Of a stretch of 64,000 nt of DNA, positions 1 to 64,000 are shown piece after piece (within the stretch, counting starts at the first letter, position 1; each line of letters opens with the position of its first letter). The DNA is taken from the NCBI GenBank assembly GCA_009746045.1, contig RPFO01000154.1, positions 8,745,693 through 8,809,692 on the forward strand. Direction: 5' to 3'. Made by a program: the position numbers and the translations under genes. The notes beneath the pieces are model-generated. The model had not been told where the DNA came from and did not search any database. It worked only from the letters and a program-made list of their open reading frames with translations. Origin of the DNA: Mesostigma viride (Eukaryota; Streptophyta; Mesostigmatophyceae; Mesostigmatales; Mesostigmataceae).

Positions 1-915
1 TGGGCGATATGGTTCCCATGACCCTTCTCCCACGCGGCTATGCTTGCGCGGCCATGATCTTGTCCCAATAATGTATAACTATGGGGCATGATTAGGCTCA
101 CACAGGGCGCACATGGGGGAAACAGCGTTCAAAGCCATCCACAGAGCCCACACACAGACATTGACAGCCAGCCTACAGCTTCGCAAGGCACTCCCCTGAT
201 ACTACGGCTTCGCTAGGGGTTTGGCTTGCGAAGCCGTTTGGAAGCCGCAAGTAGCCTCATCCCGAAACAGATCAAACAAAACGATTCCTCCTGGAATGGG
301 CATCCCATTTCTTCATGCGTGCTCCACACTCTTCATGAGTGCCCAAAAGTCAATGCCCCTGCTTGCATGTTGCTAGGGTTAGGAACCAGGAATCAGTTAA
401 TTCATGAGTCACGCAGTCCCGTTCGGGAGCCGCGGAGCATTAACCCGGAACCAGGAAGGCCATGGGGGGTGCTCCCCTCCAGGGAGACAAGTTCACTACA
501 GCGTGTCCGCCAACTTCAGCAAGAAGTGCTGGAGGGTCCATAGAGAGGGTCCAAGTACCAGAGAAAGGGAGGGTTCAGGGGTACAGGCTACCTGGGAAAG
601 CTTTGGCCGTGTGGTCGAACCATCCCTGGCCTACTGGGCGCCTCTTCTATACCTGCGGGCACTCCCTCGTTGAAGTGCCAACTAGGGAGCTCAAAGCGAA
701 CCAGGTAATCAAACTTGTTGAGCTAACAAGGGAGCTAAAGCGCACACACTTTTACTCCCTAGTTCAAGCGTGGCTAGTTACTACGTCCCATATTGGCCCT
801 CTACTGTGGGTGGTGAACAATATTGCAAGGGGGATGGCTTCAGATAATGTTCGGGCTGTCATGGACATGGTATATATCCTGGATGGTTCTGCTGGCAAGC
901 TAGAGGCTGGGGGCA
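1..915. other. Left-edge region, no recognised gene; holds decayed copies of AP-3 beta exon 10 junction
   Basis: No exon can be assigned here with confidence. The stretch at about 497-536 is a diverged copy of the 3' end of AP-3 beta exon 10 plus its 5' splice site (original at 2570-2612). On the minus strand it still reads LQHFLLKLADTL before a stop, where the original reads LQHFFLKLADTL followed by GTAAGT. A second fragment at about 140-185 matches only the intron side of that junction. Further AP-3 beta exons must lie to the left of the window or are too short to see here. Confidence 0.5.
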
Positions 916-2575: not shown

Positions 2576-5500
2576 AGCGTGTCAGCCAGCTTTAGAAAGA
2601 AGTGCTGCAGGAACGGCCGGAAGAGGTCCTGACGAACAAGAAATGGCACATCACCAGAGAATAGACGCAATTGCGCAATGTGAGGGTACCAAAAAATTGT
2701 GCTTGGAAAGCAGGAAGGTTACTGGCACAGCGACAAGACCTGTGAGGGGACACTCGCGCAGTTATTACATTCAGCATTGCAACAGGGAATCGGGATCACT
2801 ATGATAGATAACTTTCACTGGAAAGCCCAGTTGCAAATAATGATACATAAAAGAGCTTTGCTTTTTTTCCATTCGTTCAAATTTTCACCACGCACCGGCT
2901 GCTCCGATGCAATCGCGCGCACGTTGGAGAGGACGCAGAACTGGACCTCCCTCCCTGCCTGGGGGCCCAGCAGCGCGAGCAGCGGCTGCGAGCCCATATG
3001 TGAGTTTTTTTTGGGGGGGGGGCAGATGTGCAGGTTGGGTGGTGGATGGGGGATTTTGCGGGTTGCGAGGGGGCATGTGCTTAAGTTTGAGGATGCATAT
3101 GTGGGTGGGCGCATGCAAGTGTTCATGAGCATGCCTTGGTGTTGGATAGAGCAAAAATAGGGCAGGCTAGCGTCCCCTGTTGGGCAAACTCAGAGAGTCA
3201 AGAGGCCAGCAAACTTGGCAGCCACAAGCACTAGGACCTCTTTGTCGATGAACATCTAGCGCTAAAACTTTGTGTGAGGCTATTGGGGGCCATAAAAGGA
3301 TTGGCAGTCACCATAGGTTTGGCGGTCACAATCAGCTGACGCACAAGCCCATGCGTCTCACACAGCTGCCGCCACGGGATTAAAAAGCGTCTCCAGAAAA
3401 AACTTCGACAACCTATAGCATGCCGCGACACATGCGAAGCCACGCGAACACACCCACACACAAGAGCATACCATGTCCTTAAGACGTATCATATCAATAA
3501 AGCATGACCTTTTGCTTCAATGTGCCCGGTCACTGTAACGTACCCATCACTGAAACATACCCCCACAATGGCCGGCCGCTCGGCTCTGGGCGCCGTGGTC
3601 CAGAAGAGGGCGACAGCCGACAGGACCACCTGCGATTATTGCGCCCCCCACGGGTCATCATCCAAGGCAAGGCAAGGAGAAAGAACAGGATGTGATGGTG
3701 AGGTGGCCGATGTGAGCGTCAGAGGTCATGGTCCCAGGGTTCACCATCCCAGCAGCAGTGGGGCGAGGAGACAGCACCTGGGGCAAAGGTGGGGCAACGA
3801 CAGAGGCAGCAGTCACACCGGGACAGGAGTACTCGGAAGCGTAGCATTAAACGAGATACGCTGCAGCGTTCTCTTGTTCAATAACACCTTATATGCCACT
3901 ATCTATGTAAGGTGTATGTATAGACAATGGACCAACTATCTATGTAAGGTGCATGTATAGAGGATAGACCTACCAGAGCTATCTCGCTCCGCTAGGTATG
4001 AAGCCACCGCCACCCCACTCATCCCACCCACCCCCGCGTTGGTCGAGTGCAGCAACGGCCGCGCATGCTTCAGCAGAAGCCGAAGGTCCTCCAGCGCTGC
4101 CACTGCCGCCACATGCTGCCCTGCACTTGGTGCCGGCTGCCCTGCTGCCGTCGCCACCTGCCCTGCGCTCTGCGCGGTGGTGCCACCGCTGCCATGGCTC
4201 TGTGCTGGTGGTGACCCTGCCACCTGGCCGCCCTCCCGCAGGGTCTTCACAGGGAGCTGGGAGCATGCGTAGCGCAGCAGCGCGTCCATGACCGCCACCT
4301 GACGTCACGCCCATAGCGATGAAGACCATGGACATCAGGCCGGGCCAGATGGTGCATGAAACCATGGAAATCACGCCGGGCCAGATGGTGCATGAAACCA
4401 TGGACATCACGCCGGGCCAGATGGTGCATGAAACCATGGACATCAGGCCGGGCCAGATGGTGCATGAAACCATGGACATCACGCCGGGCCAGATGGTGCA
4501 TGAAACCATGGACATCAGGCCGGGCCAGATGGTGCATGAAACCATGGACATCACGCCGGGCCAGATGGTGCATGAAACCATGGACATCACGCCGGGCCAG
4601 ATGGTGCATGAAACCATGGACATCAGGCCGGGCCAGATGGTGCATGAAACCATGGACATCAGGCCGGGCCAGATGGTGCATGAAACCATGGACATCACGC
4701 CGGGCCAGATGGTGCATGAAACCATGGACATCACGCCGGGCCAGATGGTGCATGAAACCATGGACATCAGGCCGGGCCAGATGGTGCATGAAACCATGGA
4801 CATCAGGCCGGGCCAGATGGTGCATGAAACCATGGACATCAGGCCGGGCCAGATGGTGCATGAAACCATGGACATCACGCCGGGCCAGATGGTGCATGAA
4901 ACCATGGACATCACGCCGGGCCAGATGGTGCATGAAACCATGGACATCAGGCCGGGCCAGATGGTGCATGAAACCATGGACATCACGCCGGGCCAGATGG
5001 TGCATGAAACCATGGACATCAGGCCGGGCCAGATGGTGCATGAAACCATGGACATCAGGCCGGGCCAGATGGTGCATGAAACCATGGACATCACGCCGGG
5101 CCAGATGGTGCATGAAACCATGGACATCACGCCGGGCCAGATGGTGCATGAAACCATGGACATCAGGCCGGGCCAGATGGTGCATGAAACCATGGACATC
5201 AGGCCGGGCCAGATGGTGCATGAAACCATGGACATCAGGCCGGGCCAGATGGTGCATGAAACCATGGAAATCAGGCCGGGCCAGATGGTGCATGAAACCA
5301 TGGACATCACGCCGGGCCAGATGGTGCATGAAACCATTGAGGGCCATCACGGGGGGACGAGCGAGAGTGTCGATGCAAGCGGCGCGAATAAAAAAACAGA
5401 ATTAGTAGAACGCAAGCAGCGCCGGCGCAGAATGCAGAACCGATGCTTGTAGGACAGCCAAGCCAAGGATCAAGGTTACACAAGACACGCTGTAACGCAC

Positions 5501-8500
5501 ACCTAGGACAGACAAGGTGGGAAATCCATCGCGGAATACAGAATTGGTACCGATGCGACCGGCTGCACGGCAGGGCACAGCAGTAACAGCTGGCTCGAGG
5601 GAAATCCCACCGAACGCAGACCCATACATACATGGACAGTAACGCTTCGCAAACTAGGCAACGGCCCTCACCAAGTCTCAAGACCAGACTCCTCCCAAGG
5701 GGTTCGCCATTAACTGACATTGCCTGTCGGGAAGAAACGCAAGTGGAAAGGCACATTTGCTTGTGTGTGCTGAAACACAAGTTTGCATGCAAGAGAAGGC
5801 ATGTCTGTGTACGTGGTGGAGGGTGGAGGGTGGAGGGGTGGCTGGGTGGAGGTTTGTGAGGGTGGGCGCGCTCACCTGGCCCCACCCATCCAGGTTGGGC
5901 AGCACCCGGCACAGCTTGCGGTAGTGCGCGTGCAGCAGGTCGAAACGGTCGGGGCCGATGCGCGAGAGGGAGGCCACGACGCTGCCCAGCACCTGCGCCG
6001 AGTGTTGTGGCGGGCGCAGGTGTCGTGTGGCAATCCAGTAAACATCGTAAAACCCAGAAACGCAGCGGCAGGCTCTAACCATTGCACGCCATACCATACA
6101 GTAAATAATAGTATTAAAACACCACAGTATACTATAACACCGTAGTACACTATAACGCCATAGTATGCTTTAACGTCATAGTATACTATAACGCCATAGT
6201 ATGCTATAACACCATAGTAATGATAGTATGCTATAACACCATAGTATACTATAACACCATAGTATGCTATTACACCATAGTATACTATAACACCATAGTA
6301 ATGATAGTATGCTATAACACCATAGTATACTATAACACCATAGTATACTATAACACCATAGTATACTATAACACCATAGTAATGATAGTATGCTATAACA
6401 CCATAGTATACTATAACACCATAGTATACTATAACACCATAGTATGCTTTAACACCATAGTATACTATAACACCGTAGTATGCTATAACACCGTAGTATG
6501 CTTTAACACCATAGTATGCTTTAACACCATAGTATACTATAACACCGTAGTATGCTATAACGCCATAGTATGCTATAACACCATAGTAATGATAGTATGC
6601 TATAACACCATGGTATACTATAACACCATAGTATGCTATAACACCATAGTATGCTTTAACACCATAGTATACTATAACACCGTAGTATGCTATAACACCA
6701 TAGTATGCTATAACACCATCGGCATACCCACCGAGCCCACCATGGAGTTGCACAGAGTGAGCATACTGGAGTACCGAAACATCGTGTCTGTGAATGGGTG
6801 GATGGGTGGAGATTGGCAATTAACCACACAACGTTTTCACGATCCAACCCGCTTCACACACGCAAGACCACGCGCGCACACACCATCGGGTGGTCGTCGT
6901 TCAACAGGACGCGCAGCGGGTCCTCCAGCGCCGACATCAGGGAGGGGTCCACCCTGGCCGCGTGACAAAGCCAGGAAAATCCACCGGGCGAAACAAATGA
7001 AGCCTACAGGCGGCATTGTGAGGCATCACTGGCATAGGTTTCAATATTAGGGGCAGCAACGGAGTATGCCAGCGGCCGCAACGGAATACTCAAGCCGGCT
7101 CTCAACGCAGGGTGGACGGCCCGTTGCTGTCCCACGTTGATTTCTTTCCGTGTGACAGTAGGCTCGAAGGCCTTGCTTGAGGCACTGAGGCCGCCGGTCC
7201 TCCTGACGCTGGCAAGTGACAAAAACAGCATTACACTCGTTCGCTCACAAGAATCACCAGCTTCTATGGAAAGAATAAGCAGTCTGGGCCCCCATGTGTG
7301 AGTGGTAAAGAATAATAATATTAGTCAGCATGCTGAATTAAAATATGACAGATGCAATCGCATTCGAGTAGTCAATTACCGATGACCCACGAGCACCAAC
7401 AGTGGTGTGCTTACTTGAAGGCTTTGGGTTGGTGACTAACTGACATTACACTTAGGCACAGTTAACTCAGTCCTCATTTGAAGGCGGTGGGGATGGTGAT
7501 TAATTGACATGCTAAAACTCTATTAGACTTCGGCACAGTTGACCGCGTCCTTATTAATTGACATGCTAACCTCTTTTAGACTTAGGCACAGTTGACCGCG
7601 TCCTTATTGATTGACCAGCTAACCTCTATTAGACTTAGGCACAGTTGACCGCGTCCTTATGAATTGACCAGCTAACCTCTATTAGACTTAGGCACAGTTG
7701 ACCGCGTCCTTACTTGAAGGCTTTGGGGATGGCGAGCGCAGCTGTCCTGCGGACGTAAGGCGACGGGTCCCTGGCAGAGTTGCAGATGGCGTCCACCAGC
7801 TGCCACCGTACGAGGAACAGCACAACAGACCAGGAAGATGCCAGCACAGAGATGACTCGTTCTGATTCAAACTTATGGCACGAGGATCGCAACGATGATC
7901 AGCTCTAAATAAATTACTTATCTAGTGCGGCACCGACGTATCACTGCCAGTGTCCTGCATAAAAATATGTGTGATACTGCTTCTATGGATGACATCAGGT
8001 GTGCATGCCTGTGTGTAACATCTTCGTACCTGCTGGCAGTTTAACCGCCAAAGTGGGTGGGTTGCATGGATGGCGAAGAAGCTATCGAGAAAGGGGCGGA
8101 TGCAATGCCCGGCAAGAGCCATATGTAACAATAAACTTACTGCCCACATAAACAGGCGCATGATGGTGGATGGTGACACAACAGACAGCGGATAGCACAG
8201 TATGGCCTGCTGCTTTGCTAATTCACAAAACCACTTGAAGGATGGGAAGGGCCTAGGAACAAGTAGATACCATAGCGACAACATGCCACAGGACATTGCT
8301 GGCATCAAAGATGGCCTGCCAATCGACCTCCCCATCCACATGCCCATCCGGCTGCACGGCCTCCGCCACCCCACATACCCTCCACCCATCCCTTTCAATG
8401 CTTCTGCTGAGGGCTGAGGGCCTTGTGTTTGACATTCTATGTCGACGCCACTTGCGTGAAGCAACTATGGCCATCGATAAAAAGCGAAAAGAGACCATTA

Positions 8501-11500
8501 TAAATCACAACCCCACCCCCGCAAACATATATTATGGAACACGCAGTCCTTCCTCACCAAAGGCGCGAGCAGCGGCACCTGCATGTTGGACAGCCCCTTG
8601 AGGGCCAGCGAGCGGAAGAAGGGGTCCGCGTGGGCCAGGTCCTGCGCCCACAGTGAACCATGCATTGGTTGACGTAGGTAAGGTGGAGTGGTAAGCGAGG
8701 GGGAGAGGAAGAAGGGGTCCGCATGGGCCAGGTCCTGCGCCCACAGTGAACCATGCATTGGTTGACGTAGGTAAGGTGGAGTGGTAAGCGAGGGGGAGAG
8801 GAAGAAGGGGTCCGCGTGGGCCAGGTCCTGCGCCCACAGTGAACCATGCATTGGTTGACGTAGGTAAGGTGGAGTGGTAAGCGAGGGGGAGAGGAAGAAG
8901 GGGTCCGCGTGGGCCAGGTCCTGCGCCCACAGTGAACCATGCATTGGTTGACGTAGGTAAGGTGGAGTGGTAAGCGAGGGGGAGAGGAAGAAGGGGTCCG
9001 CATGGGCCAGGTCCTGCGCCCACAGTGAACCATGCATTGGTTGACGTAGGTAAGGTGGAGTGGTAAGCGAGGGGGAGAGGAAGAAGGGGTCCGCATGGGC
9101 CAGGTCCTGCGCCCACAGTGAACCATGCATTGGTTGACGTAGGTAAGGTGGAGTGGTAAGCGAGGGGGAGAGGAAGAAGGGGTCCGCGTGGGCCAGGTCC
9201 TGCGCCCACAGTGAACCATGCATTGGTTGACGTAGGTAAGGTGGAGTGGTAAGCGAGGGGGAGAGGAAGAAGGGGTCCGCGTGGGCCAGGTCCTGCGCCC
9301 ACAGTGAACCATGCATTGGTTGACGTAGGTAAGGTGGAGTGGTAAGCGAGGGGAGAGGAAGAAGGGGTCCGCGTGGGCCAGGTCCTGCGCCCACAGTGAA
9401 CCATGCATTGGTTGACGTAGGTAAGGTGGAGTGGTAAGCGAGGGGGAGAGGAAGAAGGGGTCCGCATGGGCCAGGTCCTGCGCCCACAGTGAACCATGCA
9501 TTAGTTGACGTAGGTAAGGTGGAGTGGTAAGCGAGGGGGAGAGGAAGAAGGGGTCCGCGTGGGCCAGGTCCTGCGCCCACAGTGAACCATGCATTGGTTG
9601 ACGTAGGTAAGGTGGAGTGGTAAGCGAGGGGGAGAGGAAGAAGGGGTCCGCGTGGGCCAGGTCCTGCGCCCACAGTGAACCATGCATTAGTTGACGTAGG
9701 TAAGGTGGAGTGGTAAGCGAGGGGGAGAGGAAGAAGGGGTCCGCGTGGGCCAGGTCCTGCGCCCACAGTGAACCATGCATTGGTTGACGTAGGTAAGGTG
9801 GAGTGGTAAGCGAGGGGGAGAGGAAGAAGGGGTCCGCGTGGGCCAGGTCCTGCGCCCACAGTGAACCATGCATTGGTTGACGTAGGTAAGGTGGAGTGGT
9901 AAGCGAGGGGGAGAGGAAGAAGGGGTCCGCATGGGCCAGGTCCTGCGCCCACAGCAGTCACACAGCACTAGCAGAGTTGATCATTGGTGAGCCATGATCT
10001 ACATTACGTGGGAGAAATTGTTCGTTACATGCGAGACAGGTATCGCGGCGCATGCACCACCGTGGCCACACGCGCCTGAAGAATGTAGGGTAAGTCCTTG
10101 GCGGCTGGCCACCAAGGACAGCAGGGGGGAATCCCTCCCTCGCTCCCCACACCCCCACAACCCCCCCCACACCCCCACACCCACCCTTAATTGTCCCTCT
10201 GCCCCCCTCCCCAACCCCCAAACTTCCGCAGCAATGCTCCGAATACGACCACCATCCACACCGTCTGGAGCGCATTGAAAAAGACAAACCCCCTTACCCC
10301 CACTGAGCAGCAACGTCCCCCCCCCCTCCCCCCATACATAGCTTCTGCAGCGCAATGACGTGCCCACCCACCCACCCACCCACCCACCCACCCACCCACC
10401 CACCCACCCACCCACCCACCCACCCACCCACCCACCCACCCACCCACCCACCCACCCACCCACCCACCCACCCACCCACCCACCCACCCACCCACCCACC
10501 CACCCACCCACCCACCCACCCAACCACCCACCCCACCCCCCTTCTGCGGCAAGAACATTCCCTCTTTCCCCCCGTGAAAAATTACCCCCCAAGCCCCCCA
10601 CCTTCTGCAGTGCGTTAACCGCCAGCAGGGCCTCGTCCGGGTGTTGTCCCGCCAGGTGCGCCAGAATAAGCATCACCATGCGCTTGACATGGACGTCACC
10701 GTCTGCCACGCACTTGACCACGTCGGGGAAAAGGAGGGAGATGTCTAGCCGCGCCGCAAACAGCTGTGGACGCCAGAATACATTTTGAATGGATTTTCGA
10801 CAAGGAATTTTTAGAGGAAATTGGAACTAGGCAAGGGGCGTTGGACACAGGAAGTTTGTACAAAGGATGTTAACAAGGGATTCTGCACGAAGCACCTTTT
10901 GTATAAGGCAACAGGGCAGAGCAAGGAGAAGGCACTGACCGAGATATTTTAGTGCACACGATCTAGTTTAATTTGACCTGATTATAACCCTGGAAAATTT
11001 ATGAGAGCTCGATTTACACCACACTAAAATAGCCGGGCAGGCTGTCTGGCTAGTTGCCACAACCACATGCACCAGCATATGTCTGACGGTCTACTGCGCA
11101 GGGGGGAGTGGTGCAGGACGACAGCGTGATGGGATGTGGGGGGATCCGCAATTATGTGCCAAGGACTCACAAACAAGGATGCGGATAAAGCGGGGCAGCG
11201 GGGGATGTGGCAGTTCAAGTGTAGCTTAGGGCAGGTAATACAGTGAAGCCTTGGAAATTCAATGAGCCAGCAAGAAAGAAAGCCAAGGGAGGCGGGGTGG
11301 AGAAGGGCCTCGTCAGGTTGCAATTGGCTGAAACCATGCGCGCGGGACTTGGCACAGGGGCTGTGACCGGGGGCTGAAACAGGGGGCTGAAACAGGGGAT
11401 GATCCACAGCAGCAGGGATAAGGGCCTCTGTACTGCGATACGGACAATCTGAGCAAATGCGATCATACAAACAGCATGCAGGGCACGCAACTGTACACTG

Positions 11501-12960: not shown

Positions 12961-15900
12961 ATGGTCAAATTATGCACTGTTTGCGGGGAGGCCAAAGCGG
13001 TCTTACGGCGTCCTAAAACTCGCCAAGAGGTATGCTTTGTGATCAATCGGGCATATTCTTGTCATGTTCTTGTTGTTGTTAGCAAAGCCTGCATACGCCA
13101 TGCACGAGAAGTCGGTTGCTTAACTTGTCTTCCGTGTTACATGTTGTTGAGTTTCCTCGTCCCCACTTTCTAACACTTGGGCGTTCATGGCTTCTTGTAC
13201 ACATCCTCTAGGTGAATGCCTCCAAACGTACAGTCTATAATGCCTCCCAGTAGCCTGCCAGCCCATTGATCGTCTCGAATAATGGTTATATTGACACCGG
13301 TCCAAATGTCTGAGCACTTCCCGAAAAGCGCTTGTATTTATTGTTGGTTGAAGGTACCTATCAACGGCATGTCTACCCCTATGTGAATAGTGATCAGGCA
13401 GCTGAGTATTTGCTTGCCGCGTTTGCTGCAACGTGCATTTGAACCTGTGACACTCTTCTTGAGCAAGCAGAGTCTCCAAGGGAAGCCGTACCATTAGCCT
13501 GTGTTGGGTTAGGTGTACTTTGTAGTCGCTACCGTCCTTGGAATCCCGCCAAATAACACCAACAATATCATGTTGTGACTCGAAGTTTTTAGGCAAAACG
13601 GCCATAGTCGGAAGCTTGTAATGCAATTTGTTTTCTGTCATGTCGTCACAAGTCGGCAGTAACGTGCGGTTTGCCGACGCAAGCACGGAGTGCTAGCATA
13701 CCGACTAAAGCACGGAATGCCAGCGTACGTGGGGACAATGGACCCTGCCTCCTCCATACACCCTTCCACGATACCCTGTGTGGCTGGGTGCGCTGCCACT
13801 TGTCCACCGCGAGGTATTATTCACGACCGTGGGGACAACCACACTAACGTGTGGACCATGGCTTGCACACAGCGAGGCTGGGTATCCTTTTTCCACGAGA
13901 CACTGTCATCAGCTTATCACTTCACCGTTAACGTCAGAAACTTGTCTCGCTTGGGAACTCCTCCCCGGGATCCTTCTTGCCTCTGGACGCTTGTCTCCTC
14001 CTCGTGATCAACACCGCCATCAAGGAGTGTTTCCTGTTGCGTTGTTTTGGGTGCTGCCCTTCCTAAAACAACACCCGTCGTCACTGCACCTTCCCCCGGC
14101 CGCCCTTCTCCCCTCCATCCCTCCTCTACACCTCTCTCCCCCCCCCTTGGCCCCCTGTTGCTGGCCCCCTTCCACTGCCCCCTTCCCCAAAGACGCGGGA
14201 GAGGTGCTTCTTCCGCCTCGCCCCCCTCCCCACCTCCTCTAAACCCCTCATCCCCCCTTGTCCCCCCCTTTTGGTGCCCCTTCCCCTCCGGATGCCCCCT
14301 CACCCCAGACGTGCAGGGAGTGCTTCTTCCGCCTGCTGGAGGACGAGGTGCACGATGCCATCACCCGGCACAAGCTGTTCACGCGCGGTGACCGGCTGGC
14401 CATTGCCGCGTCGGGCGGGAAAGGTGCGCCTTTGATGTTGGGTTTGTGCCATCGGGTGGGAAAAGTGCGCCGGTGCCTTGTCCTACTTTTGTAAACATAT
14501 GTTTTGTCGGGGAAGCTGCGCCACGTGTCTGTCGAAGTTGGTGGGAACGGTGCGCCTCTTTCTTCCAGATGCGCATCAGTCTCTCCCCTTATCTCTGATG
14601 AATAGAAATGGGGGGGACAGGTGCGCCGTGCCTCGATTATAGCATACAGCTGGGGGCCAACAGTGCGCCTCGATTATAGCACACAGCTGGGGGCCAACAG
14701 TGCGCCTCGATTATAGCATACAGCTGGGGGCCAACAGTGCGCCTCGATTATAGCATACAGCTGGGGGCCAACCGTGCGCCTCGATTATAGCATACAGCTG
14801 GGGGCCAACCGTGCGCCTCGATTATAGCATACAGCTGGGGGCCAACAGTGCGCCTCGATTATAGCATACAGCTGGGGGCCAACAGTGCGCCTCGATTAAA
14901 GCATACAGCTGGGGGCCAACAGTGCGCCTCGATTATAGCATACAGCTGGGGGCCAACAGTGCGCCTCGATTATAGCATACAGCTGGGGGCCAACAGTGCG
15001 CCTCGATTATAGCATACAGCTGGGGGCCAACAGTGCGCCTCGATTATAGCATACAGCTGGGGGCCAACAGTGCGCCTCGATTATAGCATACAGCTGGGGG
15101 CTAACCGTGCGCCATGCACCTGCCCCTCTCCATTGTTATAGTCATACATTGGGGGGGGGGGGGGGGGGGAATTGCGCTCATGACCTCATTGAAATTAGAG
15201 ATACAACAAGGGGGCAAGGATGCGCCTCTTGCCTCGATGTTATAATCATGCGCTCGGGCGGGTGGATTTCAGCGCTTGGGGTTAAGCGACGCAGAGGCTA
15301 GAAGCTAGGGGTAATGCGATCTTCCCTCCACACTGTTATCCATGGAAATCAGGCAAGGCCCTCGATGTTTGCCACCCTTGCATGCCACCCAGTGTCGTCG
15401 TTCTCTTGTCTGTGCCCTGTTGTGAAAACCTATGCCCCTATCTACTTATACCCCACCTGATGGTACTATTTACTTGTAGGCATGATCTATGCACCCACGC
15501 CTACTATGTACTTCTTGCCATGATCGGACACCCATACTGTTCATCATGCCAATACGTATTCGCAAGCCCCCTCCTTGGTGGATTGCGAGAATTTGCCACA
15601 TGTCGTCATGCCCAGTACGCACACATGCTGCTCATGATGCCCTTGACTACCATAAAGCCTTTCCCTGAAACCTTTTCTTTTCCTTGTTTAAATTTTCTTG
15701 AAACCTTTTCCGCCCTCACACCTCCCCACGTGCTCGTCTTCCCCCCCCCCCCACCCCCCCGGCAGACTCTACCGTGCTGGCGCACATGCTGACCACGCTG
15801 AACGCCCGGCACGACTACGGCCTGGACCTGTTCCTTCTCTCCGTCGATGAGGGAATCGCGGGGTACCGCGACGACTCGCTCGAAACCGTGAAGCGAAACG

Positions 15901-18287
15901 AGGCGCAGGTGGGCGCATGGTGGTGGGGACAATGATGATGAGGTGGTGGTGGATTGCCGTGTGGTGGCGTAGGTCAGGTGGTGGTGACGATGATGATGAG
16001 GTGGTGGTGGATTGCCGTGTGGTGGCGTAGGTCAGGCGGTGGTGACGATGATGATGAGGTGGTGGTGGATTGCCGTGTGGTGGCGTAGGTCAGGTGGGGC
16101 ATTTGGATGGGGGTAGGGACAAGGAGCAGGAAGTGTTTGGTAAATGGTGGGCGAGCGTAGGTGGGCGCTGGGATGAGGAGGAGGAGGAGGTGCTTGCCGT
16201 ATGGTGGTTGCATGTAGCGCAGGCGGGCGCAGGGATGCTGGGGGCAGAGCAGTGTGGTGGATGTGCAGCGGTGGTGGTGCCAGGGAGTAGCAGAGCCGTG
16301 GATCTGTGGTGGTTAACTGAAGCGTGCGCGGGTAGGCGTGTGATGAGGAACCGTGGGGTGGACGGCCCAAGTGCAAACGAGGCAGGTGGGCGTGCCAGGA
16401 TGAAGAGGGGGAGTGCCAGATGGCGGTGTAAGTTAGGTGCATGGCCAGGCGGAGGTGTTGTGCCGGTGGTTAGCCGGGGTGTGGCGTAAGGTACGTCGAG
16501 TGTGGATGGATGACGGCCGTTGCAGGGTATCGTCACGAATGGAGGACCTTGGGGTGGTGGGTGCGACCGCCCTGCCTTGCCCGGCCATGCTTGCGCGGCC
16601 GACGTGCGCCTCCCTGGCCCGCAGCCTGTTTGTCACCTGATGCTTCACCTACCGTAGTGGTCGAAATACATTGTGACAAAATGCTTTGCGACCCCAAAAC
16701 GAGGTGAAGGTCTAGGTTTGCGAGGCAAAAATTTTCAACATGGTAATTGCGATTGCGACGCAGCGCTTTCTCACTACAAAAAAAAAAAAAAGGGGCAAGT
16801 TCTAGTAGACAATTACAGTAGCGTTTTACAGTAGAGTTTGCGAGCCGAAATAAAGCAAATTAGTATATGTTTGCGAGGTGGATTTGCAAAGTATTTGTCG
16901 TAAAGTGACTTTTACCATTACGGTATACCCAGGGCTGGCCCCAGTTAATATTGAACTGTAGGCCCTGGGTATTCAGAAATGTTGAACCCTTCACTGCCCC
17001 CTCCCACCCTTACCCCACTCTTGATCACTCCTTCCCGCCTTTTGTGCACAGTGCGTTGAACGCAGTGCACCATCGTACTCGTGTTTGTGCCCTTGCTTTC
17101 GTGCTCGTGTTTGTGTGCGGTTAGCCGGTTACGCCCTTGTGCCTGCCATTGACTTCGTGCCTGCCATTGACTTCGTGCCTGCCCTTGGTGCCTATCGTGC
17201 CGGCCCTTGGTGCCTATCATGCTGGCCCTTGGTTCCTATCTGTGCCTGCCCTTTGTGCCTATCGTGCCGGCCCTTTGTGCCAGTCGTGAAGGCCCTTTGT
17301 GCCTATCGTGCCGGCCCTTGGTGCCTATCGTGCCTGCCCTTTGTGCCTATCGTGCCTGCCCTTGGTGCCTTTCGTGCCGGGTATGCCGGTCCCCCTCCTA
17401 CTCAGCACACCATCCTGCAGGGGGCCTTCTGTATCGACTACCATACTTGGCACAAGCCCCCGCGTGCGCGCCCCTTACCCCTCTGCCCTGCTGCCCCTAC
17501 ACCGTTCCCTCCTACATTGCAGTACGGCATCCCGCTGGTGGTGGTCACCTACAAGCAGCTCTACGGGTGGACCATGGACGAGATCGTGCGTGCCGTGGGG
17601 CAGAAGAACAACTGCACCTTCTGCGGCGTGTTTCGGCGGCAGGTGCGTGCCGGCTGGCAGGGTCTCTCCCTGAGTTAGCAAGCAAGCAAGCAAGCAAGGA
17701 AGGAAGGAAGGAAGGAAGGAAGGAAGGAAGGAAGGAAGGAAGGAAGGAAGGAAGGAAGGAAGGAAGGAAGGAAGGAAGGAAGGAAGGAAGGAAGGAAGGA
17801 AGGAAGGAAGGAAGGAAGGAAGGAAGGAAGGAAGGGAGGGAAGGAAGGAAGTAGGTAAGTAGGTAAGTGGGTACGTACGTACTTGTGTGCCATGTCGGGG
17901 GCCAGTTTACGCTGAAAGCCCTGGTCCTTAGTCCCCACCTTCGCTGATGTATTCATGCTGCTGAAGGCCATGCTGATGATAAGCATGGCGACCAAAGATC
18001 ACGCCAATGATGACCAAGCATCGGTGATATATAACGGCTGATCGAGACTTGCCTTCAAGGGTTCCATGCCTTCAAGGGTTCATTCTAACCACACTCTTGA
18101 AGCTAACAATGCCTCGAAGAGATTACTTGAGCCTGTGTGTGTGCAGACATGGAGGCGGATGGGCAGGTGGGCGCATATGTGCTTGTGCCTACCCTCCTGC
18201 CTGCATATGTGTACCCTCCTGCCTGCCTACCTGCATGCGCATGCCGCCCCGCGCTGGACCATGGGTCATGAACACATTGCTCGTGCC

Positions 18288-18343
<56 letters not shown>

Positions 18344-21300
18344 TGCGTGTGTGTGCGCGCGCGCATGCACGTGTTCGTGTGTGTGTGTGTGTGTGCGCGC
18401 GCGCGCGTGTGTGTGTGCTTATGGCCGCGCATGCCCCCAGGCGTGTGACCGTACTGATGGCTTGTGCTTGTGCGCGTGCTGCATATGCGTGTGTGCGTGT
18501 GTGTGTGTGTGCGTGCGCATGTGACTGACTGCCTGCCTGTTCCCAGGCGCTGGACCGCGGGGCGCACCTGGCCGGCGCAACGGTGATGGCCACGGGGCAC
18601 AACGCGGACGACGTTGCGGAGACGGTGCTGCTCAACCTGGTGCGCGGCGACTTTGCGCGGTGAGGGGGCTTGGCTATAGGCGCAACACCCGGTTATATCT
18701 TGAAAGCACGGTTGACATTGCCCACTCGTATATGTGGCGATTGCCCACTCGTATATGTGGCGACGTAGCATGGTGAGGCTGTGCATCTCGCCAAGATGGG
18801 GTTCTTGGCCGCCTGTGGCACTTTTGGTGACCGGGACCTCTCATGTCCCCATCGTGGCTACGCTCGCCCGAGTGGCAGCATGTCTTTTGTCCACGCTCCC
18901 CCTGGTGGGGTGTGCCGTTGCCGTGTAAAGCCTCCCATGGGTTGCTGTCGACCATCTATTTCTAGTACTTTGCCCCACCTGGTGCGTGGTGATTTGCGCA
19001 GTAGGGGCATTTCTGTGGGGCGCTTTTGTCATCTGGAACGCTTTTGTCATCTGGAACGCGTTTGTCATCTGGAATGTGTTTGTTGTTTGGAACACTCTTG
19101 TCGTTTGGAACGCGTTTGTCGTTTGGAACGCGTTTGTCATCTGAAACACTCTTGTCGTTTTGAACGGCCTTGTCATCTGGAACATTCTTGTCATCTGGAA
19201 CGCGTTTGTCATCTGAAACACTCTTGTCGTTTGAAACGCTCTTGTCATCTGGAACGTGTTTGTCATCTGGAATGCTTTTGTCGTTTGGAACACGCTTGTC
19301 ATATGGAGCGCTTTTGTCATCTGGAACGCTTTTGTTGTTTGGAATGCTTTCGTCATCGTTTGTGTTGCTCACCCTGGTTCGCAGCGGCCTCCCAGCCAAG
19401 GAATGGGAGAAAGTGTAGTGAGCCAATCGAGGCGAATTGGAGGCCCTGTTTTGTGCCAACATGTGGCCTTGTCCGCACGTGTGAAGTCGCCAAATTATTG
19501 TCCTTCTAGTCTGATTCCTTTCCTATGAATTGTCTTTTGGATCTCCAGGCAAACCAGATTTGCCACGTCAAACACTATATAACCCAGCTGTGGGGTCTAT
19601 CCGTCCGTGTCACTATAGGACTGGAGACTAGGTTGATTGAGTGACGATAGTTTCTTCCTGGCATCCTGACAACCCTGTGTCCTAGCATGCTAGCAGGCTG
19701 GGTGGTTGCGTGTGCACCTGTTGTGGTATGATTACAGCGCTGGCTGGCTCGCTTTACCCTCATCTCCTTTGGTTTGTTTCTTACAGCGCCAAAGCTACCG
19801 GCTAGCGGCGTATGTGCTATACTGTGTATAATCTCTCTCCATCCTTTGCGTGACGGCAGGCTGGGCCGGTGCACGGCCATTATCACGGGGGAGGGCGGGT
19901 CGCTGCCGCGCGTGAAGCCGTTCAAGTACACGTACGAGAAGGAGATTGTCATGTACGCCTACTTCAAGAAGCTGGACTACTTCTCTACCGAGTGTGAGTC
20001 ATCAAAGACCTGAAACCTTGCAATAAGCGACTTGAAAGCGTGTACCACAATATATATGAACTCGTAGTACAAGAATGACATCCCTTGCTGTGGCAGTAGC
20101 CTACCTAGCACACTTGCCTCTTAAAACAACATGACTACTCCAGTGAGGGAGAGTACACGGGGTGTTGAGACCACCAGTGGGGGGTTTCGGTACGGGATCA
20201 CCAGAGCGGTCATGAGTGTGAGGATGGCTGAGGTCCCTCGGGCTATCCTGCGGACGAATCGTTGCTCAGAGGGCGCACGCCGTACATTGTACTGGTAGTA
20301 AATGCTACTTCACTCTTATGCTTCCGCCTGAGTGTGAGAATATGTGTGGAGCGCAGCTGCGGTTTGTGATTACCACACATCCGATGTGGGTAGGGAGTTG
20401 GACCGGAGCTGGACTGTCCTCATGAGGGAACATCCTTGGTATTTAATTAATTGGCAATTAAGATATTTTGGTATTGAAGGTGTTTGTAATAAGGTTGGGT
20501 TTATATAACGACACTCTATGCATGTTTTATCTCAAAATCTCTCAAAGACGTCTTTCTTCTTCTTACGTGGGCACAAACACCTGCCTCCCCCCTGTGGCGC
20601 CGCAGGCATCTACTCCCCCTTTGCCTACCGCGGGTTTGCGCGCGAGTTTGTAAAGGACTTGGAAGCGGCGCGGTGCGTTGGATAACCTTTCTGCAATTAT
20701 ACTGCTATTCACTGATATTGGATCCGTACGCCTGCATTTTGTGGTGCTTGCATGAAATCAACGTGTCATTTGGAAATGTGGGATGCTCTTGTCTTCCCTG
20801 TTATGCCCCTTGTGGTTTACGTTAAGCTTCACATACCTTGTTGTCCTCTACACTTGACGCTATTATCAAACAGTAGCACGCATGCCTTACGCCGGACAGC
20901 ATCGGTAGGCTAAAACGCGCCCGTTTTGCGGTTGCCTATGTGTCACACAGGCCATCATCAGTAGGATGACATGTGCACGTGTGACATTTGCTGGCACTCA
21001 CTTGTTCACCACAGACGGATGGCCAATAGTGATGGCATGTGCTATTTTTTCTTTGCCTATGCATTGCAGGCCGATGGCCATCATCGACATCATCCGGTCG
21101 GGGGAGGCCTACGCGACCGAGGCTGAGGGCCTAGAAGGGGACGAGGGGGAAGGGGGGGTAGGAGCCGTGATGGGTGCCAGTAGAGGGGGATCGAGCGGAG
21201 CGGATGCATCCTCGAAAGCACAGGGGACGCCCGCGGTGGGCAGCGGCACCGCCCAGAAACCGCGAGAACCGGGGTTGTGCCAGCAGTGCGGGTACCTCTC

Positions 21301-23121
21301 CAGCCAGGTGGGTGACCGTTGCCCGGGCTGCTGCTCGTAGTGGTGCTGGTGCTGATGCTGGTGCTGCTGATGGTGGTGGTGCTGGTGGTGCTTCTAGTGG
21401 TGTTGCTGATGGTGCTGGTGCTGCTGATGGTGCTGATGGTGGTGGTGCTGGTGGTGCTTCTAGTGGTGTTGCTGATGGTGATGGTGATGGTGATGGTGAT
21501 GGTGATGGTGATGGTGATGGTGATGGTGATGGTGATGGTGATGGTGATGGTGATGGTGATGGTGATGGTGATGGTGATGGTGATGGCGATGGCGATGGCG
21601 ATGGCGATGGCGATGGCGATGGCGATGGCGATGGCGATGGCGATGGCGATGGCGATGGCGATGGCGATGGCGATGGCGATGGCGATGGCGATGGCGATGG
21701 CGATGGCGATGGCGATGGCGATGGCGATGGCGATGGCGATGGCGATGGCGATGGCGATGGCGATGGCGATGGCGATGGCGATGGCGATGGCGATGGCGAT
21801 GGCGATGGCGATGGCGATGGCGATGGCGATGGCGATGGTGATGGTGATGGTGATGGTGATGGTGATGGTGATGGTGATGGTGATGGTGAGGGTGATGGTG
21901 ATGGTGATGGTGATGGTGGTGGTGGTGGTGGTGATGGTGCTGATGGGGGTGATGGGGGTGATGGGGATGGGGATGGGGGTGATGGGGGGGATGGGGATGG
22001 GGATGGGGATGGGGATGGGGATGGGGATGGGGATGGGGATGGGGATGGGGATGGGGATGGGGATGGGGATGGGGATGGGGATGGGGATGGGGATGGGGAT
22101 GGGGATGGGGATGGGGATGGGGATGGGAATGGGGATGGGGATGGGGATGGGGATGGGGATGGGGATGGGGTTGGGGATGGGGATGGTGCTACTGCTGCCT
22201 GCTCTGGCAACGTGCCGCTCATGTAGGGCTGGGCTTCGCTGCGTGCAACCATGCGTCGCGCCTGGCATCTTTGGCTGGGTAGAGATTGGCGGGTAGGATC
22301 TGGGACACAAGTTAAGAACGGAAATACATTACCATCACCCTGGCTACTTGAGCAGCGCATTTTCCGTACTCTTGCTGCAGTATCTGGTAAAAGTATCCAA
22401 TATTGCTAAAAAGTATCTTGATACTACTTGTTGTAGGATTGTTTTAGGATATGCTTTCCTTTACCATGAAAGCGGCTTCAATCCCCCCGTGCACAAATGA
22501 CACTGTCTCGGCCCTGTACCTGGTGATGTGGGGCAGGCGTGTCACTGAGACAGCTGCACACCGCGGGTCTGGCTGGCACAGTCATGCTTTTTCCCAGTTG
22601 TGCTCGCATAAGTTTGCTCGTTTCGCAAGTCTGACAGTTGGCTCTATCTCACTCACGCCACGCTTCATGGTGGCCAACGGAACTGCGTGAATGAATGAAC
22701 GAACTTATTAATCCGTGGTGACCAGGCGCGGTGCAAGGCGTGCGTGCTGCTGGACGGCCTCAACCGCGGCCTGCCCACGCTGGGGTTGGCGCGCAACCAG
22801 GCCAAGGCCAAGCGCATTATCGCATCCGCACAGGAGACGTCACAGGTGGCGACGGCCACAGATGGCAGCATGGGGAGTGGCATGGGTGGCAGCAGCGGTA
22901 GCAGCAGCGGGTGCAGGGGAGAGGATGACCCCACCAAGCAAGAGGGCATGGATGTGCCACAACGTAGCGCTGGCAATGAGCGTCCTGCTGAAGCCAGCAT
23001 AAATAGCCACGGTGCCGCTGAGGTGTCAGTAAGTGCAGGTGCGGCGGCCTCATGTGTGCCTGTGCAGGGTCGGCCTGTGGGAAGGGCGGGAGCTGTCAGC
23101 ATCGGCTATGATGATTTGTAA
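12961..23121 (+). CDS. CTU1: Cytoplasmic tRNA 2-thiolation protein 1 (CTU1/NCS6/ROL5), complete, nine exons
   Basis: Catalytic ATPase of the URM1 pathway. It adenylates and thiolates wobble U34 of tRNA Lys/Glu/Gln in the cytosol with partner CTU2. Exons: 12961-13029, 14309-14423, 15766-15908, 17523-17642, 18547-18659, 19860-19993, 20606-20672, 21070-21307, 22726-23121; all GT-AG and phase-compatible, 464 aa. Visible: zinc-binding CxxC pairs (C5/C8, C25/C28), PP-loop SGGKDST (58-64), [12 protein letters not shown] (about 138-149), GHNADD (166-171), [18 protein letters not shown] in exon 6, [16 protein letters not shown], and C-terminal CxxC pairs (C324/C327, C336/C339) before [10 protein letters not shown]. 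The plant and animal proteins are about 350 aa. The excess is a Gly/Ser/Glu-rich insert after IIRSGE in exon 8 and a Gly/Ser-rich tail of about 110 aa. The start codon gives the expected [19 protein letters not shown] opening. Confidence 0.96.
13120..13686 (-). CDS. Antisense ORF nested in CTU1 intron 1, unknown protein or mobile-element remnant
   Basis: An open frame of 188 codons on the strand opposite CTU1, entirely inside intron 1. Unlike most ORFs here it is not built from a repeat and has ordinary composition: hydrophobic, charged and aromatic residues mixed, for example [31 protein letters not shown] and [18 protein letters not shown] do not recognise the family. No clear splice sites or upstream context tie it to other exons. 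It could be a nested gene, an exon of a mobile-element protein or a chance ORF. Confidence 0.3.
   Translation of the reverse strand: MLASANRTLLPTCDDMTENKLHYKLPTMAVLPKNFESQHDIVGVIWRDSKDGSDYKVHLTQHRLMVRLPLETLLAQEECHRFKCTLQQTRQANTQLPDHYSHRGRHAVDRYLQPTINTSAFREVLRHLDRCQYNHYSRRSMGWQATGRHYRLYVWRHSPRGCVQEAMNAQVLESGDEETQQHVTRKTS
14424..15112 (+). repeat. CTU1 intron 2 array derived from the exon 2 donor; 37-bp units
   Basis: The exon 2 end and donor (TCGGGCGGGAAAG then GTGCGCC, 14411-14430) recur at 14453-14470 as TCGGGTGGGAAAAGTGCGCC, then as GGGAACGGTGCGCC at about 14546 and GGGACAGGTGCGCC at about 14613. From about 14645 a regular 37-bp unit (GTGCGCCTCGATTATAGCAT plus ACAGCTGGGGGCCAACA) repeats about 12 times to 15108. 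Each unit keeps the GTGCGCC donor heptamer. Confidence 0.85.
15140..15175 (+). repeat. Short G homopolymer tract in CTU1 intron 2
   Basis: A run of about 20 G residues within intron 2, directly downstream of the 37-bp array. The rest of the intron up to the exon 3 acceptor at 15764-15765 is ordinary sequence with C/T-rich tracts before the acceptor. Confidence 0.8.
15909..16260 (+). repeat. CTU1 intron 3 array derived from the exon 3 donor, about 62-bp units
   Basis: The exon 3 end (GCGCAG then GTGGGCGCATGGTGGTGGGG, 15903-15928) is followed by units of about 62 bp, each running through ATGATGATGAGGTGGTGGTG and ending GTAGGTCAG before the next GTGGTGG. Looser copies follow to about 16250, one containing GTAGCGCAGGCGGGCGCAGG, close to the original junction. 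Exon end plus donor was therefore duplicated several times inside the intron. Confidence 0.8.
17680..17850 (+). repeat. (AAGC)n/(AAGG)n tract in CTU1 intron 4
   Basis: Five AAGC units switch to about 37 AAGG units, starting about 40 bp after the exon 4 donor at 17643. A purine-only strand of this length can form triplex structures. Upstream, intron 3 also holds an irregular run of CGTGCCTGCCCTTGGTGCCT-like units (17150-17380). Confidence 0.97.
18292..18525 (+). repeat. (CT)n followed by (GT)n/(GC)n tracts in CTU1 intron 4
   Basis: About 17 CT units lead directly into alternating GT/GC runs that continue to just before the exon 5 acceptor at 18545-18546. The alternating purine-pyrimidine stretch is a classic Z-DNA-prone sequence. 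It produces several spurious Cys/Val and His/Thr-rich ORFs. Confidence 0.95.
18975..19365 (+). repeat. CTU1 intron 5: copy of exon 5 end, then 18-bp minisatellite of about 19 units
   Basis: At about 18975-19008 the sequence CACCTGGTGCGTGGTGATTT plus GCGCAGTAGGGGC is a diverged copy of the exon 5 end and donor (CAACCTGGTGCGCGGCGACT plus TTGCGCGGTGAGGGGGC, 18633-18668). Immediately after it an 18-bp unit (TTTGTCATCTGGAACGCG and variants with TCGTTTGGAACA) repeats to about 19365. Confidence 0.85.
21335..22195 (+). repeat. Compound hexanucleotide array in CTU1 intron 8 with block-wise variants
   Basis: Begins about 25 bp after the exon 8 donor with GCTGGTGGT-type units. It then forms pure blocks: (GATGGT)n about 21475-21585, (GATGGC)n about 21585-21835, (GATGGT)n about 21835-21915, then (GATGGG)n about 21955-22190. 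Every frame on both strands is open (Asp-Gly, Met-Ala, Ser-Pro, Ala-Ile), giving false ORFs of up to 409 codons. Confidence 0.97.
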
Positions 23122-24180
23122 CGATGTTTGTGTTGGCGACGGATCTGGCCATTTTGCAGCATAGTCTCGGGTGCCTTCTCTCATGGGAACCTTTGGGTGG
23201 AAGCCTTCTGTGCTGGCACCCAGCAAAGGTGTTAATTCTGTCTGTATGGGGAGTACGACACAAATACACCATCTAATTACGGACGCTTGCTGAATTGCAT
23301 GGCCACATTCAGCGCTTTCGTGGCTGTAGCTCGCCCTGGCACGACAAACACGGCATTTCAAGGCAGTTGTTTGCGATGCCAAGAAGGAAGGTGTTCGTGG
23401 CAGCCACCCCTCCTTGGAGGGGTCAGATCTATAATCCTGTTACGAACGTATGCAAACATGTGGCCAAGTATGCCATGGACCCATACTTACGCAAGACACA
23501 AGGCATGACGCGGTGGTGAGTGAGGTGGTTATACTTTTGGGACCTGAATCTGGCCAGAGAATTGCTGGCAATCTGCAGCAAAATCTTGCTGCCAGTCCTA
23601 GCAGCCTCGATGAAAGGCTTGATAGTTGCCACTCCAACTGGGTTGAGCAATTTATTTATGAATCAAACACGTGCTCCCGGTGGGGAGTCACAGAGCACCA
23701 AAGCGCTTATAATTCCTGAGTGTGCACAACAGGAAAGGGGCCAGAGGCCCCCCCTTCCCTCGTGCCGCAGGAATGCCACATGGTGCGCAATCGGACCCAT
23801 CGAAACGATCCGGCATCCCCTGTGGGTGCAAGAAGCCCCTTGTGGGCATTGCATTACTATGGGGACATGAGCAGACATGCAGACTGTGCTGGGCCGTGGG
23901 CGGTACATATCAGTAGCGCAGGTCTGGCTGGTGTCTGTAACTTGGGCGACTGGCTAGGCTATACTGGCTATTGGCTAGGGCATACAGGCATGGCCATTCC
24001 TTTCACTGGTCATGCATAACCATTGCACATGGCATGTCAGGTAGTGTCCAGGTATGCATCACCCAAACGGGAGTTGTCCCGTCCGTAAGTAAGTCAGTAC
24101 ACGTGTAAGTAAGTACGTGATTAATTAATTAATTAAGTAAGTGTGTGTCATGCGCATGGGCATGCCACGGAGTACTATGC
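23122..24180. other. CTU1 3' flank, no recognised gene
   Basis: No exon or element is recognised. Short ORFs here lack family features and overlap one another on both strands. A GTAAGTAAG/TTAATTAA simple-sequence patch lies at about 24083-24145. Confidence 0.5.
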
Positions 24181-24184
24181 TAAT

Positions 24185-25115
24185 CGGTATAAAACTGGCT
24201 TTTGCATTTCCAATTTCAAAGTTTCGCACAAAGCTAGGCAAAAGGAAGGTCGCGGGTCCGCGGAACTTGGATAGGCGCGGCGCTAGCTGTTTGTACTTTG
24301 CATTGGACGTTTCTAGATGGCACGGGTCGCGTTGCGGGAGTTATAACGCCCGGACGATGTAGGATCTGTGTGATCGAAAACTGAAGTCGTGGGCGGAAGG
24401 GTCAGAGATTGCTGGAAAAGGGCGACGCGCCACGACTGATTGGTAGTACTGTACGACGGTGTACGTTGAACGGAATGTCCGGTCAGCGATGAATCTCACG
24501 CTGTACTTGATGTTCAGTGTCCTGGCCCTCGGCCGTTTCCAAATCTCTGCTGCTCATGTGCGGCGTGGGCACTGGGCAACAACACGTTGTACTTGAGTGT
24601 GGACAGGAGCCGTTGCGTCGCGCTGTGCTGTGGCGAACTTATTCTCCGCCGTCGGATAGCACCATCAATAAGTGTCAATGGTCGTCGATGAACCCAATGC
24701 ACCCCATGAACGAAAAGAAGTACAAATTGGCGCGGCGGCGCAGGCGTCAAAATTTGGCAAGTTGCAGAACTTGTAGCCCGGCGGCCCAGCGCTGAATTGA
24801 ATCGAATCGAATCGAATCGAATCGAATCGAATCGAATTGAATCGGACTAATCGGACTAAAACTGGCTTTTGCATTTCAAATTTCAAAGGTCGCGCAAAGC
24901 TAGGCACAAGGGAGGTCGCGAGTCCGCGGAACAGCGGAAAAGCAACAAATAAGGGCGCGGGATAAGAAATCGGACCAAAACAGTGGCTTTTGGACCCGCT
25001 CTGTCAAGGGTGACGGCTGAAAACCTGGATAGGCGCGGCGCTGTTTGTACCATGCATTGGACGTTTCTAGATGGCCCAGGGTCGCGTTGTGGGAATTATA
25101 ACGATATCAGTGATT
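24185..25115 (+). repeat. Pair of diverged direct repeats of an unclassified element
   Basis: About 24186-24360 and 24845-25105 share blocks in the same order: AAAACTGGCTTTTGCATTTC, the AGCTAGGCA..GG.AGGTCGCG block, TGGATAGGCGCGGCGCT, and CATTGGACGTTTCTAGATGG, followed by CAGGGTCGCGTTG or CGGGTCGCGTTG. The second copy is broken by inserted sequence between the blocks. A (GAATC)n run at about 24793-24842 sits just before the second copy. No ORF with known features is present, so the element type is unknown. Confidence 0.65.
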
Positions 25116-25525
25116 TGAATGGTAGTGCATTGGTGGTACTGCACGACGGTATTATTGGACAGAGTTCCCGGTCTGGCAAGCGGATTTAATTTGCATCTGA
25201 CGTTCAGAAAAGGGCTCGGGTACACGACGCGGCACGACATTGTAAAAAGGCTCGCAGAAAAGAAACCTAGGCGACTATTTGGCGCCGCGCGCGGCCCCAA
25301 AAAGCGCGTCGGTCGTGACATTGTTTGCTCCATTGGATCTGCATATACGGCGTTCGTGGGTTGTTTCGAAACCCGGTCGATGAGTTTTTACGGAAAAGTC
25401 GGGTATATAAGCGTTTTTTGACACAACCGTGAAAATGTAGAGTTCGGAATGAACTAAACCTCCTCTGAGAACTTGAGAATTTGAGAACTGGACTCGAGAC
25501 AAAAGGTTGGCCGTCAGCACTCGGC

Positions 25526-26060: not shown

Positions 26061-26164
26061 GAGTTGAGTTTGGACTCGAGACAATCAGTACAAAACGCAC
26101 ATCTCATTAGAAATACGCTAATCTCATTAGAAAAATAATTACACGAAAGTTACAAACATCGTCT

Positions 26165-26840: not shown

Positions 26841-26849
26841 AGTAACACG

Positions 26850-33982: not shown

Positions 33983-33983
33983 G

Positions 33984-35350: not shown

Positions 35351-35538
35351 AGCCTAATGCTGACCAGTTGTCAACGGCTGGCCGGCCGTCACCTTTCGTC
35401 AAAGCACCGTGTACATGCCAGGAAAGCAGTGTGAAGGATCGCTTACGAATGATGAATGTAGGGATGATATGTAGGGGTATATAGGGGGGCAAGGCAGCAC
35501 GCAAACAGACAGTATATTGGGCGCGGGTGGGGACGTAC

Positions 35539-39059: not shown

Positions 39060-39064
39060 GCCGC

Positions 39065-39215: not shown

Positions 39216-39219
39216 GCAG

Positions 39220-40200: not shown

Positions 40201-40204
40201 CCGC

Positions 40205-40555
40205 TTTGTCCCACTCACGTGCGGTGGAGCAGCTGCGACCACGCTAGAGCCCCACAAACGGCAAACCCGTGTGCCAACCTCACATGCCACTCACTTGCCA
40301 ACCTCATATGCCACTCACTTGCCACCCTCGCATGCCACTCACTTCCCAACCTCACATGCCACTCAGTTGCCAACCTCACATGCCACTCAGTTGCCAACCT
40401 CACATGCCACTCACTTGCCAACCTCACATGCCACTCACTTGCCAACCTCATATGCCACTCGCCAACCTCGCATGCCACTCAGTTGCCAACCTCGCATGCC
40501 ACTCAGTTGCCAACCTCACATGCCACTCACTTACCAACCTCACAAGGGATGCCAC

Positions 40556-40560
<5 letters not shown>
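40205..40560. repeat. 24-bp minisatellite starting at the last exon's GTGAGT junction
   Basis: Minus-strand unit AAGTGAGTGGCATGTGAGGT plus TGGC, about 12 copies (two shortened), running directly from the exon end CGCAAGTGAGTGGC. At 40208-40240 there is a second copy of the exon end itself (complement AGCTGCTCCACCGCACGTGA vs AGCTGTTGAACCGCAAGTGA). The repeat therefore carries the GTGAGT donor-like (or stop-containing) hexamer in nearly every unit. Confidence 0.9.

Positions 40561-64000
<23,440 letters not shown>

Follow-up and report, generated by a model that had tools for sequence, protein, structure and literature searches.

Exon ends and starts, together with their splice sites, recur as direct and local copies in the adjoining introns of three neighbouring genes in a 64,000-nucleotide stretch of the Mesostigma viride genome (the window). 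The copies have decayed with no significant retention of the splice site, some minisatellite arrays are built from junction sequence, and among events displaced by 50-200 bp those that span a junction are in excess. These features may be accounted for by tolerated local duplications that spare the exon and its splice site, act as seeds of minisatellites and extend introns from the ends, an explanation whose chances we put at about even. The degree to which junctions are preferred depends on the control chosen.

Genes and introns of the window

The set analysed comprises 43 introns with 85 junctions in three genes, one intron being truncated where the window ends, and amounts to 33,985 bp of intron and 12,638 bp of exon. 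For two of the genes, CTU1 and a gene for a fibrocystin-L-like protein (FIB), database protein models map exactly onto the window. CTU1 lies on the + strand with 9 exons (12961-23118) and reproduces database protein P0018 (eukprot, jgi/Mesvir1), the label Mesvir1 presumably standing for Mesostigma viride. FIB lies on the - strand with 26 exons within the window (64000-39459) and reproduces database protein P0138 (5159 residues) from residue 1798 onward. The introns of both genes are GT-AG throughout. The third gene, AP-3 beta (AP3B), is also found on the - strand and runs past the left window edge. Its 10 modelled exons (11924-2576) and their boundaries are those of our own homology model, built chiefly from a protein labelled Chlat1, which we take to be that of Chlorokybus, and from fungal proteins; the model product carries an Adaptin_N domain (2.1e-56).

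GT begins each of the 43 introns, and G is present at position +5 (GTRNG) in 43/43 donors; with CAG at 42/42 acceptors this amounts to a strict consensus for the set. The introns of the Mesostigma genome have been described as long, with a mean of 1142 bp, and repeats are reported to occupy 30.1% of intron space (PMC6947507).

Between CTU1 and FIB a 386-codon open frame (35446-36603, - strand) contains a predicted trypsin-like peptidase domain (PF13365, 3.3e-7). This frame is probably a fourth gene, so that the window may hold more than three. The CTU1 protein has 464 residues here, compared with about 350 in most of 120 listed relatives, and its region 21070-23118 (+ strand) encodes a low-complexity insertion that precedes the zinc ribbon, as well as an extended C-terminal tail. 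One 4-kb piece of the window showed no similarity to plasmids.

Junction copies and the arrays associated with them

The initial annotation had reported copies of exon ends or starts in the adjoining introns, and these lie well above chance. Donor cores recur at 0.94 per kb in their own intron and at 0.012 per kb elsewhere, with 15 of the 43 donors recurring in their own intron when twelve other introns served as comparison for each. Similarly, acceptor cores give 0.57 per kb in their own intron (5/42 acceptors) and 0.005 per kb in other introns, with 14 of the 18 own-intron matches falling in one array. These densities rule out chance similarity as a general explanation. When the 85 junction cores were searched for on both strands of the entire window, with simple sequence dropped, 29 direct own-intron copies from 15 junctions were returned (14 of the copies lie in the AP3B exon 3 array), together with no inverted copies and a single weak match outside the core's own intron. 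By this search, and by a comparison of introns with one another over distances of up to 2.6 kb, the introns do not share sequence as introner elements would. Direct, local and short, and in one case a contiguous duplication of 68 bp, the copies have the character of short local tandem duplications. Some repeats displaced by less than 50 bp were missed by self-BLAST, and an exhaustive ungapped offset scan was added.

Sixteen junctions had been named as having copies in their own introns. The copies are recognisable at 13 of these and weak at three, and three junctions that had not been listed are added here. The matched segments are mostly 20-70 bp long, the exon contributing approximately 15-40 bp and the intron 6-45 bp, and at 8 of the 12 donors with copies the displacement is 111 bp or less.

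The simplest arrangement is seen at the FIB exon end 59736 (59621-59759, - strand), a contiguous 68-bp tandem duplication of exon end and donor (44/49) with a third short copy deeper in the intron. At six other FIB donors, all on the - strand, source and copy are separated by 34-58 bp of other sequence and the homology ends sharply. These are exon end 58835 (source 58821-58869, copy 58723-58771, 45/49, with a 49-bp spacer), 56441 (source 56424-56479, copy 56314-56367, 51/56 to 51/58), 54581 (54478-54595, copy 54478-54506, 27/32), 49021 (48906-49035, copy 48906-48941, 30/36), 48426 (48279-48446, copy 48279-48335, 47/57) and 41201 (41132-41223, copy 41132-41160, 25/29). Exon ends 54581 and 48426 are two of the added junctions. 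The spacer at 49021 contains partial copies of its own flanks. A common inserted element was sought among the six spacers; of the 15 pairs, two had few shuffles reaching their score (4 and 9 of 200), which is unconvincing. In CTU1 the end of exon 5 (junction 18659, + strand; source 18629-18667) is copied at 18971-19007 with 32/39 identities.

Copies of exon starts were found upstream of four acceptors on the - strand. The start of AP3B exon 3 (junction 8641) carries its acceptor in a 93-bp minisatellite (8610-9954) in which 14 copies match the core. In FIB the upstream copies belong to exon start 52781 (52769-52854, 35/42 gapped), exon start 48738 (48696-48883, copy 48832-48883, 41/50 to 44/52) and the third added junction, exon start 54797 (54773-55027, copy 54965-55027, 39/49). 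The intron side of the 54797 copy is pyrimidine-rich, and the copy was detected in some searches but missed in the whole-window core search and in the count of core densities. FIB intron 18, which is 282 bp long, has copies at both of its ends, displaced by 94 and 136 bp.

The three weak cases are the end of AP3B exon 2 (20/25, G-rich), the end of CTU1 exon 3 (matches of 23-28) and FIB 47526 (21/24), where the match begins 3 bases inside the exon and therefore contains no splice site. At CTU1 exon 3 (junction 15908; 15903-16246, + strand) a 58-bp array begins 10 bp inside the intron. The candidates FIB 62276, FIB 53319, CTU1 14309 and FIB 42760 were dropped as too weak or as simple sequence; for the FIB exon end 42760 the core search finds no copy.

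Several copies are associated with arrays. The junction arrays with units of 24, 53 and 93 bp are minisatellites in the usual sense, with at least three head-to-tail units of 10-100 bp, and those of 24 and 93 bp consist of junction sequence. At the end of AP3B exon 4 (junction 7714; 7407-7735, - strand) the exon end is followed by four 53-bp units adjoining the donor and then by two copies of the exon end plus donor region. At the FIB exon end 40560 (40211-40580, - strand) a 24-bp array (40272-40544) precedes a distal copy (40211-40239, 25/29), and the end of AP3B exon 10 with its donor (junction 2576; 2562-2611, - strand) has its copy (487-535, - strand, 42/49 to 43/50 in the self-match) approximately 2 kb into intron 10, past a 25-bp array (915-2387). 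In these three cases source and copy flank the array, an arrangement suggesting that the array arose after the duplication. For AP3B exon 4 the order suggests that the exon end and intron start were duplicated together and that the intron half then expanded to the four 53-bp units. The end of CTU1 exon 2 (junction 14423; 14411-15113, + strand) has an 18/20 copy and decayed GGGAAAGGTGCGCC copies at about +28, +117 and +187, ahead of a 37-bp array whose units, where examined, retain only AGTGCGCC. The proposal that every unit of such arrays retains the splice motif stands for the 93-bp array, for the 68-bp duplication and for most of the 24-bp units, but not for the 53-bp array, the later units of which are without GT.

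The possibility that the copies are artefacts of assembly or annotation is very unlikely. Arrays are hard to assemble, AP3B rests on our own model, and the FIB donor at 40560 is uncertain, since it depends on model P0138 alone. Against this, in 10 of the 11 donor cases the exon side of the separate copy is about 5-20% divergent from its source, which is not expected of assembly duplicates, and the match of CTU1 and FIB to database protein models is exact. If donor 40560 were left unused, read-through (40540-40562, - strand) would give AAG TGA, a natural stop. FIB exon 25 could then be the last exon, and the 11-residue last exon of the model (39495-39462) may be a prediction artefact.

Preference for junctions under competing controls

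That the duplications are anchored on junctions is upheld when they are counted as events displaced by 50-200 bp and when array starts are considered, but not by coverage or at displacements below 50 bp. By coverage, a local copy is found for 15 of 85 junction cores and for 759 of 3070 intronic cores (p 0.16). On these figures the argument that births at random would not fall on splice sites again and again fails. The lack of a junction excess here is due to the arrays, which fill introns and give most of the intronic figure. Outside arrays, copies are present for 11/64 junction cores compared with 49/1887 intronic cores, the latter being overlapping, drawn from ten introns and hence not independent. 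Cores from exon interiors were copied into the neighbouring intron in none of 1789 tests, as expected if a duplication confined to the exon damages the gene. In a cross-intron rank control, a rank of 0.05 or better was obtained for 14/43 donors and 13/42 acceptors (many of them marginal), for 120/289 intronic cores and for 8/213 exon-interior cores; by this control there is no junction excess over intron interiors.

The counts by event are taken from a list of 45, for which units and displacements were entered by hand and units and thresholds were chosen after seeing the data. Among events displaced by 50-200 bp, 12/17 span a junction, compared with 3.1 expected from uniform birth in present-day introns (p about 2e-6) or 1.7 if the matched length alone is used; the uncertain long cases AP3B exon 10, CTU1 exon 5 and FIB 40560 were left out of this class. 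Events displaced by less than 50 bp show no excess (1/25 spanning, 0.8 expected). Of 32 arrays, 16 begin no more than 40 bp from a junction (6.6 expected, p 0.0004), and the same holds for 11 of the 22 arrays with a period of at least 8 (4.6 expected, p 0.0016). No excess is seen at 0 bp from the junction, where there is 1 array of 32 and 2.8 are expected. Detection bias was simulated by letting the exon halves decay at a lower rate, and this raised the expected share of spanning events from 18-19% to at most 22%. Finally, local copies are found for 13/43 donor cores and 2/42 acceptor cores (p 0.003), a comparison in which the masking of simple sequence disfavours acceptors.

It is possible, though doubtful, that junctions are true mutational hotspots where breaks, nicks or replication errors are concentrated, for instance through transcription- or splicing-coupled DNA damage, and where repair copies the junction segment into the intron. 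The spanning events at 50-200 bp, the difference between junction and intronic cores outside arrays, the array starts within 40 bp, the small detection bias in the simulation and the surplus of donors over acceptors all speak for such hotspots. Against them, coverage with arrays included is no higher at junctions than in intron interiors, there is no excess at displacements below 50 bp, and arrays reach into the junction itself no more than expected; moreover, the idea is tested on the same data that raised it, and introns that were shorter at birth yield the same numbers. We know of no established mechanism that targets junction DNA. The stronger form of this explanation, in which the junction, and the donor above all, is the hotspot from which introns grow outward and at which minisatellites are born, is offered only tentatively.

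The excess is most probably explained by many births having taken place while the introns were shorter, so that most tolerated duplications would have reached a boundary. Uniform birth in introns of 60-150 bp predicts 10.8-12.7 spanning events out of 17, with 12 observed, and FIB intron 18, with copies at both ends, fits births in a short intron. Several observations weigh against such an effect of the intron edge. Present-day intron lengths leave the excess unexplained (12/17 compared with 3.1). When arrays and duplications are subtracted, the median intron is still 525 bp, so short ancestral introns are not directly visible. The displacements of 111 bp or less at 8/12 donors are hard to reconcile with a later, random addition of hundreds of bases, and the excess of donors over acceptors is not predicted by an edge effect by itself. 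Similarly, simple tandem duplication does not predict the spacers of 34-58 bp and the sharp ends of homology at six donors. The data are compatible both with a mutational hotspot and with an edge effect in introns that were once short; on the evidence of one locus, three genes and a single assembly, the edge effect with neutral growth is placed somewhat ahead. Introns with a junction copy have a median length of 840 bp and those lacking one 564.5 bp, a difference that is not significant (p 0.07).

Decay of the copies and the proposed growth of introns

The decay of the copies was followed in 11 donor copies, with gaps counted as differences and with the FIB 40560 row aligned to a unit of the 24-bp array instead of the distal copy; leaving out this row gives 34/258 differences on the exon side and 27/185 on the intron side. 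By codon position the exon-side differences are 12/87, 6/89 and 16/86. Second positions differ least (6/89, compared with 28/173 at the others, p 0.03), which fits silent change in the exon together with free decay of the copy. Coding copies or alternative exons are not favoured, as differences occur at all codon positions.

The initial annotation had suggested that copies with a spare splice site might be tolerated since one of the sites would still serve for splicing, but the extra conservation of the core is not significant. The donor core (-3 to +6) differs at 9 of 99 positions and the rest at 58 of 378 (p 0.14). Selection for a useful spare donor or acceptor, or for extra U1 binding, would draw some comfort from the somewhat lower number of differences in the core and from the GT present in 8/11 donor copies. 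On the other side, GT has been lost from the copies of FIB 54581 and AP3B exon 4, the FIB 41201 copy has GC, and the protein models use the original donors. Judged from the sequences, we regard such selection as improbable.

The further suggestion that introns are being created at this locus is not borne out. Were the copies remnants of introns made by tandem duplication of AGGT-containing exon sequence, the exon end would be expected at the intron's own 3' end. The donor regions score a mean of 13.3 against their own acceptor regions and 13.4 against those of other introns, a donor region resembling its own acceptor region at rank 0.05 or better is found in 0/42 introns, and the copies lie within the intron, away from its far end. 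In favour of this origin, a tandem duplication crossing an intron-exon boundary is described as having produced an intron in the RdRp gene of potato (PMC4974935). It is nevertheless extremely unlikely here, and for any intron young enough to be recognised it is already contradicted. As in the account of the potato gene, the duplications cross the boundary and carry the splice site along. Unlike that case, in which a new intron arose, the Mesostigma models use the original sites, the copies are intronic and the pattern recurs at many junctions of neighbouring genes (PMC4974935).

The explanation that we favour, local duplication followed by neutral growth, can be set out as follows. Ordinary short local DNA duplications, mostly displaced by about 40-200 bp and such as error-prone replication or repair of breaks produces, would arise in and around introns. 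Those within exons would harm the protein and those wholly within introns would be harmless. Duplications that span a boundary would be tolerated, as they leave the original exon end and its splice site intact and the copy is removed by splicing as part of the intron. Decay of the copies, in which no clear sign of selection is seen, would follow; some may seed a minisatellite that incorporates splice-site sequence, and the net result would be that introns lengthen from their edges.

Vaughn and Bennetzen are said to have described in 2014 a 'patch-mediated' repair in rice that leaves short direct duplications. Small tandem duplications have also been reported to arise by fill-in at staggered breaks through Pol alpha-primase/CST (PMC8355091). 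Like the Mesostigma copies these are short, direct and under about 100 bp; the portion of that paper available to us draws no link to splice junctions, and several of the Mesostigma copies differ in being separated from their source by other sequence. In Daphnia, internal direct repeats in new introns are attributed to staggered double-strand breaks (PMC4202315), and as here the repeats lie within introns and are proposed to lengthen them. The Daphnia repeats shared with the adjacent exon measure 4-12 bp and are found at the far end of the new introns, whereas the Mesostigma copies are mostly 20-70 bp and lie close to the junction from which they derive. For 213 introns, direct repeats in the vicinity of splice sites are also reported, with an average of 11.4 bp around the two borders (PMC11782384). 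Both sets concentrate near intron-exon borders, but in the Mesostigma window the two borders of an intron were not found to resemble each other. Drosophila introns are summarised as having been gained by duplication or moved by sliding (PMC2891723). The tandem arrays, with units of 24-93 bp, resemble intronic minisatellites in general and differ from the usual ones in that the unit of several arrays contains the splice junction or abuts it. No account of junction-anchored copies in Mesostigma, or in many introns of one genome, was found in the literature, which does not prove absence; a search that combined tandem duplication, the exon-intron boundary, intron gain and double-strand break repair found no paper.

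How introns become long is poorly understood. If junction-anchored duplications are common in the genome, they would record, in a form that can be dated, how introns grow from their edges, and would offer a way to test whether transcription or splicing destabilises DNA at splice sites. A hotspot at the donor, if true, would be a splicing- or transcription-coupled source of intron length. If only an edge effect is involved, the locus still shows minisatellites that bear splice sites arising without new introns.

Repeats are also present elsewhere in the window. A 61-bp array at 43447-43838 contains no copy of the nearest junction. The coding part of AP3B exon 7, in our own model, has a short imperfect tandem repeat (4157-4222, - strand) in a low-complexity linker. 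Finally, the intergenic region 24180-31586 contains direct repeats of 80-210 bp spaced 0.5-2.6 kb apart (pairs 24180/24847, 24264/25022, 26946/28982, 28909/31479 and 29761/30257), which are possibly old transposon pieces.
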